From NCBI RefSeq assembly GCF_036409155.1, contig NZ_JAZGLW010000001.1:3286001-3350000 (forward strand): a DNA stretch of 64,000 nt. Reading direction: 5' to 3'. Made by a program: the position numbers and the translations under genes. Positions 24,636 to 29,381 of the stretch are shown here, one piece after another. The number at the start of each line of letters is the position of its first letter. The stretch's first letter is position 1. The stretch comes from Mycobacterium sp. 050128 (GTDB taxonomy: Bacteria; Actinomycetota; Actinomycetes; Mycobacteriales; Mycobacteriaceae). The notes beneath the pieces were generated by a model. The model saw nothing but the letters and a program-made list of their open reading frames with translations, was not told the origin of the DNA and searched no databases.

Positions 24636-24651
24636 ATACCCCCCGGGGGAT
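24636..24651. promoter_or_regulatory. CsoR-type operator 1 (autoregulatory)
   Basis: ATACCC-CCCG-GGGGAT is a 6-4-6 inverted repeat with one mismatch, 39 bases before the CsoR-family start codon. It matches the length and spacing of sites at 25091 and 28987, and the G/C-centred pattern of known CsoR-family operators. Confidence 0.75.
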
Positions 24652-24690
24652 GATGGCTTATATTGGCATATAACAAGCGAGGGGACCGTG

Positions 24691-24960
24691 ATGGTTGGAG
24701 ACGAAGACAGCATCGCTGCCGTGTTGAATCGGTTGCGCCGTGCACAGGGACAGCTGGCCGGTGTTATTTCAATGATCGAGCAGGGCCGTGATTGTAAGGA
24801 CGTGGTGACGCAACTCGCCGCGGTCTCTCGCGCGCTTGACCGCGCCGGATTCAAAATCGTCGCCACCGGTATGCGCGAATGCTCAACCGGAAAAGGGGCG
24901 AAGGGCAAGAAGCCGCTGACGGAAGACGAGTTGGAGAAGCTCTTCCTCGCGCTGGCCTGA
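24691..24960 (+). CDS. CsoR/RcnR/CstR-family (DUF156) transcriptional regulator
   Basis: The all-helical 89-residue repressor has the DUF156 pattern LNRLRRAQGQLAGVISMIE, then GRDCKDVVTQLAAVSRALDRAG and GMREC. Cys35 and Cys64 match the two cysteine ligands of copper-sensing CsoR, but the intervening His (four residues before the second Cys) is Gly60. A Cys-Cys-only arrangement is typical of CstR-type persulfide sensors and unlike Cu(I)-binding CsoR. GAGGGG precedes the ATG; GTG 24688 is an alternative start. A perfect-length operator lies in its own promoter, with two more before downstream genes. From memory it is similar in size to the uncharacterised CsoR paralogue of M. tuberculosis. Confidence 0.9.
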   Translation: MVGDEDSIAAVLNRLRRAQGQLAGVISMIEQGRDCKDVVTQLAAVSRALDRAGFKIVATGMRECSTGKGAKGKKPLTEDELEKLFLALA

Positions 24961-25090
24961 CCCAGTCGATCGAACCTCTTAGCGTGGCGACTTGATGGTT
25001 GCGTGTTAATGGGCTGTCTGTAGCCCGCTGAACTGCGCAAAGTCCATCCGCTGATCCACGACGGCGTCTTGCTCACTTCTGTCCTATACT

Positions 25091-25106
25091 ATACCCGGTA
25101 GGGTAT
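25091..25106. promoter_or_regulatory. CsoR-type operator 2 upstream of mmpS-mmpL
   Basis: ATACCC-GGTA-GGGTAT is a perfect 6-4-6 inverted repeat 53 bases before the MmpS start. Adjacent TATACT (25085-25090) could be the minus-10 box, so the regulator would cover the promoter. Confidence 0.8.
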
Positions 25107-25159
25107 CGAGCGCCGCCCAAACTGCGCCCGCCGATAAGCAAGGAGGTCGACGTACACCG

Positions 25160-28590: not shown

Positions 28591-28972
28591 ATCTGAATTG
28601 GCGGCCCCGCACGCCACCGCGGCCGGGCAGCTCCCTGTTGCCGAATCGCGCGACCGGCCGAGCCGGCTGGGTCAAGCCGCCGCCTGGGTGGTCATCGTGG
28701 CCGGCGTCGTGTTCGTCGTCGCGGTGATCTTCTTCTCGGGACTCATGTTGGGCTGGTCTTCGGGCCATGAGCATGGCTGGGATCGAGATGGTTGGCCCGG
28801 TGGCCGCATGCATCCCGGCATGACTGGGTGCCCAATGATGGGCACCGGCGGCATGATGGGCCCCGGCGGCATGATGAGCCCCGGCGGCATGATGGGCCCC
28901 GGCGGCATGATGAGCCCAGGAGGCCCGGGCCCGTCCCAGACGCCAGGGCCATCGATCCCGCCGCGCCCGTAA
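28580..28972 (+). CDS. Met/His-rich single-span membrane protein with GGMMGP repeats
   Basis: The 130-residue protein starts inside the end of the MmpL gene (11-base overlap). It has a polar N-terminus, a membrane span at about residues 34-57 (VVIVAGVVFVVAVIFFSGLMLGW), then an exported tail: SGHEHGWDRDGW, HPGMTGC, and four GGMM[G/S]P units. Met-, His- and Cys-rich exported tails of this type are usual in proteins that bind Cu(I) or other soft metals. No catalytic domain is visible and I know no named family. The overlap argues for coupled translation with MmpL, perhaps as a periplasmic metal or substrate chaperone. Confidence 0.8.
   Translation: MTDESELAAPHATAAGQLPVAESRDRPSRLGQAAAWVVIVAGVVFVVAVIFFSGLMLGWSSGHEHGWDRDGWPGGRMHPGMTGCPMMGTGGMMGPGGMMSPGGMMGPGGMMSPGGPGPSQTPGPSIPPRP
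28847..28918 (+). repeat. four in-frame 18-bp tandem repeats (GGMM[G/S]P)
   Basis: Units at 28847, 28865, 28883 and 28901 are nearly identical, alternating GGC and AGC at the fifth codon. They encode GGMMGP and GGMMSP alternately. Copy number is likely to vary between strains by slippage. Confidence 0.85.
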
Positions 28973-28986
28973 CGCGGTCCAGGGGA

Positions 28987-29002
28987 ATACCCCCGCGGGT
29001 AT
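28987..29002. promoter_or_regulatory. CsoR-type operator 3 upstream of AhpD-like gene
   Basis: ATACCC-CCGC-GGGTAT is a perfect-armed 6-4-6 inverted repeat 17 bases before the AhpD-like ATG. The same 16-bp layout appears before the regulator and before mmpS. Confidence 0.8.
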
Positions 29003-29018
29003 AGGAATTGTAAAGAAT

Positions 29019-29381
29019 ATGAGCGATCACAACCACTATCACGCAGTGTTGAACGACCTGAATCCGCAGCACCGCGAGCTGCGCAAGATGATCCCGGATG
29101 TGTACCGGGGATTTGGCGAAATGAGCAAGGCGGCGCTGACTTCCGCTGCTCTGGACAGCAAGACAAAGGAACTCATCGCGCTGGCAATCGGGGTGGTGGC
29201 GGAGTGTGACGGCTGCATCGCCTCGCACGCGCAGGGAGCCGTTCGTGCCGGAGCCTCCAAAGCGGAAGCCGCAGAGGCCATTGGCGTGAGCATTCTCATG
29301 CACGGCGGACCGGCCACGATCTACGGAGCTCGTGCCTATGACGCGTTCTGCGAATTCATCGATGCGCAGAGTGTGAACTGA
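29019..29381 (+). CDS. AhpD-like / carboxymuconolactone decarboxylase family protein
   Basis: The 120-residue helical protein has the redox motif AECDGCIASHAQGAVRAG (Glu, CxxC and His all present), which in AhpD-type proteins gives disulfide reductase and peroxidase activity. The N-terminus MSDHNHYHAV is His-rich. The ATG lies 17 bases after a CsoR-type operator, leaving a short leader with GTAAAGAAT but no strong ribosome site. Its regulon position suggests a role in handling thiol, sulfur or peroxide stress (inference). Decarboxylase activity is unlikely given the CxxC motif. Confidence 0.88.
   Translation: MSDHNHYHAVLNDLNPQHRELRKMIPDVYRGFGEMSKAALTSAALDSKTKELIALAIGVVAECDGCIASHAQGAVRAGASKAEAAEAIGVSILMHGGPATIYGARAYDAFCEFIDAQSVN

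Follow-up and report, generated by a model that had tools for sequence, protein, structure and literature searches.

A candidate CstR-like, sulfane-sulfur-responsive operator set that includes an MmpS/MmpL exporter in Mycobacterium

Among the closest described systems is that of ScCsoR (SCO0620) in Streptomyces coelicolor, a repressor that binds ATACCn6GGTAT and controls a persulfide dioxygenase (PDO), TauE and a rhodanese. Polysulfide modifies its Cys37 and releases the repressor; Cys37 and Cys66 are both involved, and the C37S and C66S mutants keep DNA binding but lose the response (PMC7533328). The same source reports tri- and tetrasulfide bonds for CstR, and persulfidation of Cys37 only for ScCsoR, and calls the sites of RicR and of Geobacillus CsoR highly similar. 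The papers cited here are represented by excerpts, and all statements about them extend to those excerpts. Here we describe a locus in a 64,000-nucleotide stretch of Mycobacterium sp. 050128 (NZ_JAZGLW010000001.1, positions 3,286,001 to 3,350,000; hereafter the window), in which a CsoR-family regulator, an MmpS/MmpL exporter of the resistance-nodulation-division (RND) type, a Met-rich membrane protein and an AhpD-like protein lie among three operator-like palindromes (Table 1). It is probable, in our assessment, that a CstR-like repressor switched by sulfane sulfur controls the exporter together with the Met-rich and AhpD-like proteins.

The regulator of this locus resembles ScCsoR in having two cysteines 29 residues apart (37/66 in ScCsoR, 35/64 in the window), a 16-bp operator and putative autoregulation, and the PDO, rhodanese and TauE targets of ScCsoR recur in mycobacterial sister loci, though not in the window locus. 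Unlike the situation in the window, the four circuit genes described for ScCsoR in the excerpt include no MmpS/MmpL, and our searches of the window genome found no close PDO or sulfide:quinone oxidoreductase (SQR). CstR of Staphylococcus aureus and its relatives likewise combines a pair of cysteines with a fourth metal-ligand position that is not His; no RND pump is named among its targets in the excerpts, unlike in the regulon proposed here (PMC10318464, PMC7533328). Neither the regulator type nor the pump type is new. What appears to be new is that the two are joined in a conserved way, that this union extends across a clade and to plasmids, and that there is a second recruitment in Rhodococcus; in the open-access literature, the scope of our survey (with subscription papers outside it), we found no description of an MmpL under a CsoR- or CstR-type repressor.

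The preliminary description of this stretch had placed palindromes of the form ATACCC-N4-GGGTAT before the regulator gene, mmpS and the gene for the AhpD-like protein. Their positions proved exact, and their arms hold one mismatch in total. At up to one mismatch, these three sites are the sole occurrences of the pattern in the whole genome (6,733,569 bases), where the same search with a backwards control pattern gives one match. At up to three mismatches the window holds 18 matches against 10.25 expected, a modest excess (18 was reached in 2 of 100 shuffles), and those with no or one mismatch are the three sites only. The shorter published core, ATACC-N6-GGTAT, occurs perfectly three times in the genome, twice at this locus, and its backwards control not at all. 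The third occurrence, at C1:188603-188618 (L078), has a different core, ATACCGCTTCTGGTAT.

Loss of the operators in orthologous loci had been named at the outset as grounds for giving up the proposal, and the operators are kept. Of 68 ortholog loci, 61 have a site with no or one mismatch in the 300 bp 5′ of mmpS (0.4 in shuffled upstream regions), and in 56 of them it is perfect (shuffled expectation, 0.005). The same holds within 300 bp of the regulator gene in 84 of 91 scored relatives, 41 with a perfect site, and of the gene for the AhpD-like protein, a carboxymuconolactone decarboxylase (CMD) family member, in 25 of 33, where 17 sites are perfect and the median distance to the start is 32 bp. 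Scoring at the latter two genes covered regulator matches of 60% identity or more and CMD matches of 65% or more, each with at least 150 bp of upstream sequence. Some of the remaining CMD genes lie downstream of the regulator, apparently in one operon. A chance origin of the sites is ruled out by the genome-wide counts and the ortholog shuffles.

The regulator scores 80.6 bits against PF02583, over the curated cut-off of 22.8. Its closest solved sequences are InrS (5fmn), 7mq1 and others; 7mq1-7mq3 are labelled csoR by their depositors and are presumably pneumococcal CstR. In the alignments, the metal-ligand His position, four residues before the second Cys, holds His in InrS, 6ahx and 4m1p, Asn in 7mq1, and Gly60 in the window. 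Cys35, Cys64 and Gly60 are invariant in all 91 scored relatives (87 of them distinct), and none has Tyr before the first Cys. This scoring took in relatives of 60% identity or more; the paralogs were set aside, as was a second match in L038 (41% identical, interrupted by a stop and lacking a second Cys). Copper-sensing CsoR and RicR use a C-H-C ligand set. There are four PF02583 genes in total in the window genome, and two of the three paralogs, L074 and L076, show the Tyr-Cys...His...Cys pattern of copper sensors (of the paralogs L074-L076, the scoring covered these two). Judged by its aligned ligand set, the window regulator is not a copper sensor of the CsoR/RicR type, because both His and Tyr are missing, while L074 and L076 keep the C-H-C pattern. 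A copper CsoR was ruled out as its family on this ground: the mycobacterial copper CsoR and RicR belong to the same Pfam family and have a related G/C-centred operator, but differ by C-H-C against C-G-C here. With CstR-like proteins the regulator shares two cysteines at the family positions, the lack of the metal-ligand His and an operator of the ATACCn6GGTAT type.

It could be asked whether a different member of the CsoR family (copper-sensing CsoR or RicR) occupies the sites, with the neighbouring regulator incidental. The window genome does contain three further DUF156 genes, and RicR and CsoR operators are described as similar (PMC7533328). We nevertheless find this very improbable, as 84 of the 91 scored regulator genes are themselves preceded by a site and no other locus of the window genome has ATACCCN4GGGTAT with one mismatch or fewer.

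The pump belongs to a clade (73% identity or more to the window MmpL) whose members occur, by hand count among the matches listed, in no fewer than 66 of the 198 genomes searched in the genus; four candidates were scored per genome, and the matches listed reach down to about 1272 bits. By the same kind of count, 72 matches stand at 73% or more. Sixty-six of these were examined and, with L039 and L079, make up the 68 ortholog loci, namely 60 fetched MmpL loci, six loci from the regulator search (L034, L036, L037, L038, L039 and L045), L079 and the window; the others are G088, G069, G174, G017 and the second matches of G022 and G189. The nearest named copy of the full locus among those found is that of M. 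numidiamassiliense (L079), and a regulator gene is present in the fetched stretch at 36 of the 68 loci. As far as upstream sequence can tell, the pump is a standing member of the regulon. Asp-Tyr pairs are present in both halves of the protein (DY/DY) in 67 of the 68 loci, and the alignment of the 68th has a gap at the first of them. In MmpL proteins such pairs act as the proton relay, and because they are kept, the pump is likely an active exporter. In architecture and in its MmpS partner it resembles the siderophore exporters MmpS4/MmpL4 and MmpS5/MmpL5 (1288 bits for MmpL4 and 1195 for MmpL5 in the PDB search). It differs from them by its CsoR-type operator, and full-length members of the window clade reach 1516-1985 bits, in a different search. 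The scores of MmpL4 and MmpL5 do not exceed those of paralogs of 58-60% identity; the MmpL tree considered below was built without these named sequences.

A match to the regulator, paralogs included, occurs in 195 of the 198 genomes at an E value of 0.001, and we sampled the neighbourhoods, about 9 kb on each side, of 40 of the best regulator loci. At 29 of the 40, with regulators 86-92% identical to that of the window, a PDO-rhodanese gene lies within about 9 kb. TauE is also present in 27 of these 29, and a rhodanese-YgaP-like gene and an SQR were found at 20 and 16 of the 40 loci. On one contig, L050 combines the regulator, part of an mmpL, CMD, SQR, PDO and TauE. The 11 loci without PDO are L034-L039 and L045 (pump and/or CMD loci), L057 (CMD), L051, L068 and L072. 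Many PDO loci have a site about 50 bp 5′ of the regulator and, at about 1-1.7 kb upstream, additional ones that often number four. Followed gene by gene in L042, L043 and L044, this site cluster is a divergent promoter, with the PDO gene on one side and rhodanese-TauE-regulator on the other; in L043 and L044, SQR follows the PDO gene. The families matched in L044 are PF00753+PF00581, PF07992, PF00581+PF11127 and PF01925, and its NCBIfam matches to SQR_III and Blh are below their cut-offs. M. chubuense pMYCCH.01 has the same regulator type in a PDO-SQR-TauE cluster with no MMPL. A metal or sulfur signal had originally been suggested for the regulator. Because the copper-type His and Tyr are missing and the relatives accompany PDO, SQR-like, rhodanese and TauE genes, this can be narrowed to a pointer to sulfane sulfur.

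The same partners bear on whether the regulator is a general thiol switch whose signal is an oxidant or electrophile (hypochlorite, quinone, nitroxyl or disulfide stress) instead of sulfane sulfur. Broad thiol stress would fit the thioredoxin, the peroxiredoxin, the Rv2466c-like open reading frames (ORFs) and the CxxC protein beside sites in other genomes; papers on thiol stress in S. aureus mention CstR in their excerpts, and Rv1766c-Rv1767 of M. tuberculosis, which also includes a CsoR-like regulator, is reported to be up-regulated in hypoxia (PMC4916473). The commonest partners of close relatives, however, are PDO, TauE, rhodanese and SQR-like proteins (29, 27, 20 and 16 of the 40 loci), which treat sulfane sulfur and sulfite, and we regard a general thiol switch as quite unlikely.

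Table 1. Features of the window locus and related plasmid loci (window coordinates)
Feature	Position	Strand	Remarks
Operator-like palindrome ATACCCCCCGGGGGAT	24636..24651	.	5′ of regulator gene; one arm mismatch
CsoR-family (PF02583) regulator, 89 aa, CstR-like	24691..24960	+	Cys35/Cys64, Gly at His position
Operator-like palindrome ATACCCGGTAGGGTAT	25091..25106	.	5′ of mmpS; perfect
mmpS (PF05423), MmpL accessory protein	25160..25591	+	family match
mmpL (PF03176), RND exporter, MmpL4/MmpL5 type, 1000 aa	25588..28590	+	Asp-Tyr pairs in both halves
Met-rich protein, one hydrophobic stretch, MMGPGG-type repeats	28580..28972	+	ATG (28580) overlaps mmpL stop
Operator-like palindrome ATACCCCCGCGGGTAT	28987..29002	.	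5′ of CMD gene; perfect
AhpD-like CMD protein (PF02627)	29019..29381	+	E51-x11-C63-x2-C66-x3-H70
Mycobacterial plasmid loci L239, L240, L300			M. intracellulare, M. chimaera, M. kubicae

The gene content given in the preliminary description was borne out, since the PF02583 regulator, PF05423 MmpS, PF03176 MMPL and PF02627 CMD protein all matched their families. Several observations weigh against a sulfane-sulfur switch, or against the place of the pump under it. In the fetched stretches of L034-L039, which hold the nearest regulators (92-99% identity), no PDO, SQR, rhodanese or TauE match was found, and the stretches of L045, L051, L057, L068 and L072 have none either. Searches of the window genome found no close SQR and, for PDO, a best match of 34% identity. 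Because the nearest relatives are without linked sulfur genes, the sulfur link of the window subgroup is one of descent and operator, not of neighbourhood. A perfect site at L291:2532-2547 (G031) precedes a P-type ATPase with a heavy-metal domain (2598-4868), and this operator may also serve copper regulators in the genus. Since this ATPase carries the site, and the RicR and Geobacillus CsoR sites are highly similar, the motif alone is no proof of a sulfur sensor. The Met-rich tail fits soft metals (copper, silver) at least as well as sulfur. As for the pump, no site lies within 300 bp of mmpS in 7 of the 68 loci (L038, L039, L182, L183, L189, L200 and L204), and 6 of 20 control MmpL loci, hand-picked across 58-68% identity, have a site with at most one mismatch, 5 of them a perfect one. 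For a sulfur-oxidation pathway in the window genome, the PDO and SQR searches gave weak matches only, and no such pathway is claimed.

Much of this would suit a regulon of the same composition in which the regulator senses a metal (Cu(I), Ag(I) or Ni(II)) and the MmpL and Met-rich proteins handle a soft metal. The Met-rich tail resembles a soft-metal binder, the ATPase with its site lies in another genome of the genus, and PF02583 is a metal-sensitive repressor family; moreover, Rv1766 clusters with Frankia proteins that lack Tyr and the H...C part of the CsoR motif, and nickel has been proposed for them (PMC4531530). We consider a metal sensor unlikely all the same. The copper-type His is absent in all 91 relatives and there is no Tyr before the first Cys, whereas two paralogs in the same genome keep both; other close relatives lie in sulfur operons; and the Met-rich gene was detected in few relatives, in contrast to the widespread pump and site.

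In three of the loci without a site near mmpS (L038, L182 and L204), the regulator lies 0.7-1.3 kb upstream of mmpS in the same direction, and regulator and pump possibly share a promoter. The control loci were further placed in an MmpL tree of 90 rows, built by a quick method with the root drawn at the midpoint. A 76-row side (68 rows with the site and 8 without) is separated from 14 rows without it (support of 96 in the Shimodaira-Hasegawa-like approximate likelihood ratio test, SH-aLRT), and the five perfect-site controls form, with L223, a six-row group beside the window clade. The site labels require a minimum of 7 changes on this tree, compared with about 20 in shuffles. The one-mismatch match of L233 breaks the GGTAT arm and is labelled as no site in the tree, yet it is counted among the 6 site-bearing controls; the labels of the plasmid rows L239 and L240 come from a separate scan.

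The locus had been taken for a local regulon. What stands of this is the local operator set of one CsoR-family repressor, comprising the repressor itself, MmpS/MmpL and the CxxC AhpD-like protein. What does not stand is its confinement to a single odd locus, as the pump clade reaches at least 66 of the 198 genomes and is in several of them unlinked from the regulator yet site-bearing. The regulator and mmpS are on different contigs in G058 and G051 and about 370-500 kb apart in G134, G195, G161 and G097, and each of the two genes has a site. Twelve chosen genomes hold 52 perfect sites, with none for the backwards control, and the surroundings were read for part of these (20 regions). Beside the sites are genes for the regulator, CMD, mmpS, DUF302, thioredoxin, SQR-like flavoproteins and peroxiredoxin, as well as a YgaP-like membrane protein, an Rv2466c-like ORF and alanine dehydrogenase; sites in, for example, L283, L287, L289 and L297 have no such gene alongside. 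In L286 (G022), CMD, mmpS-mmpL, SQR-like flavoproteins, peroxiredoxin and a YgaP-like protein surround three perfect sites within 12 kb. A perfect site between alanine dehydrogenase and the Rv2466c-like ORF in G134 (L279:1369-2955) hints at a wider redox regulon there.

The pump is also found on plasmids. A search for the MmpL gave matches of 80-90% identity in sixteen plasmid records, and 10 of the 15 listed belong to M. intracellulare or M. avium. The plasmids pFLAC0181 (M. intracellulare) and pJCM_13573_2 (M. kubicae) share one layout, in which a single perfect site separates mmpS-mmpL from the divergently oriented genes for two FAD/NAD(P) oxidoreductases, DUF2892 and the regulator; the oxidoreductases are SQR-like on pFLAC0181, the copy scanned. 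On an M. chimaera plasmid the regulator lies before mmpS, perfect sites precede both, and SQR-like and Rv2466c-like genes are adjacent. The pump on such plasmids has been labelled mmpL4/mmpS4 (PMC8115904), and the operators found here call these siderophore-exporter labels into question.

In Rhodococcus, plasmid regulators 82-89% identical to that of the window lie in clusters with TauE, DUF302 and metallo-beta-lactamase-fold (PDO-type) proteins, and the pRHL3 cluster of R. jostii RHA1 (regulator RHA1_RS43905, MMPL RHA1_RS43900) additionally has trxA, CMD and rhodanese genes. Five of the 6 Rhodococcus plasmids opened (L299, L302, L303, L304 and L307) encode an MMPL of 717-846 aa immediately in front of the regulator. 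It is about 27% identical to the window MmpL over parts of its length and has no annotated MmpS; the PF03176 match was confirmed for the pRHL3 protein, the copy scanned. On 4 of these 5 plasmids a perfect site lies 5′ of either the MMPL gene or a rhodanese gene that immediately precedes it, and all 5 have a site 5′ of the regulator, four with one mismatch. The Rhodococcus MMPL is apparently a second, independent recruitment of an MMPL pump.

The sulfane-sulfur regulon that we favor might work as follows. In unstressed cells the repressor would sit on its own promoter and on the mmpS and CMD gene sites, as the matching operators lead us to infer. By analogy with ScCsoR and CstR, sulfane sulfur (persulfide or polysulfide) would be the effector and would persulfidate or crosslink Cys35/Cys64, whereupon the repressor would let go, switching on the regulator gene, the MmpS/MmpL exporter, the Met-rich membrane protein and the AhpD-like CxxC protein together. 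The cargo of the pump would then be a reactive-sulfur product, or else an amphiphilic molecule that cells under sulfur stress make or need; in the cytoplasm, the CxxC protein would reduce persulfides or disulfides. An amphiphilic small molecule is suggested as cargo because the nearest solved relatives of the pump are named siderophore exporters. In this strain, whose genome is without a close SQR or PDO, the switch would act mainly through the pump and the CMD protein.

To our knowledge, many MmpL pumps have no known inducer. A clade found in at least a third of the genomes searched, and on M. intracellulare and M. avium plasmids, would here gain a precise and testable trigger. If an MmpL4/MmpL5-type RND pump is induced by sulfide from hosts or neighbours, sulfur stress would be coupled to envelope export and possibly to drug tolerance. 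We also entertain, with more doubt than conviction, the broader idea that MMPL-type RND pumps are an unrecognised arm of sulfane-sulfur defence, for which the whole mycobacterial MmpS/MmpL clade and, independently, the shorter Rhodococcus MMPL came under the control of CstR-like repressors, and that they export a reactive-sulfur product left uncleared by PDO and TauE, such as a lipophilic persulfide, a polysulfide or a thiol conjugate. PexA of Rhodobacter capsulatus, an ABCB7-like protein, has been proposed as a transporter of reactive sulfur species and is of the ABC type, not RND (PMC6424863).

Two other mycobacterial systems invite comparison. In L258, a regulator gene and a CMD gene form a divergent pair with one perfect site between them. 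This is the arrangement expected for Rv1766c-Rv1767 of M. tuberculosis, in which we take Rv1767 to be a CMD protein, and we infer that the two pairs are the same. Rv1766c-Rv1767 also places a CsoR-like regulator beside a small protein, with no MmpL in the excerpts (PMC4916473, PMC8562490, PMC4531530). The mmpS6/mmpL6 genes of TbD1 encode another such pair, which has been connected with redox, hypoxia and copper responses (PMC9048740). The frdD region was used as a proxy for TbD1 (PF02313 matched 11 of the 198 genomes), and the stretches examined from 7 of them have no MmpL match and no site, the mmpL6 sequence itself not having been searched.

The E-x11-C-x2-C-x3-H set of AhpD-type proteins is present in 33 of the 35 loci with a CMD match, and 2 are not aligned there. 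The Met-rich protein is the least general part of the locus. Its ORF, scanned from the second codon, matches no Pfam or NCBIfam family at an E value of 0.001, and clear matches to it occur only in the window, L034, L036, L037 and L079, besides a short one in L205 (50 residues, 50% identity). The gene may be a young addition to the locus. The MMGPGG-type repeats in its product are arranged in tandem.

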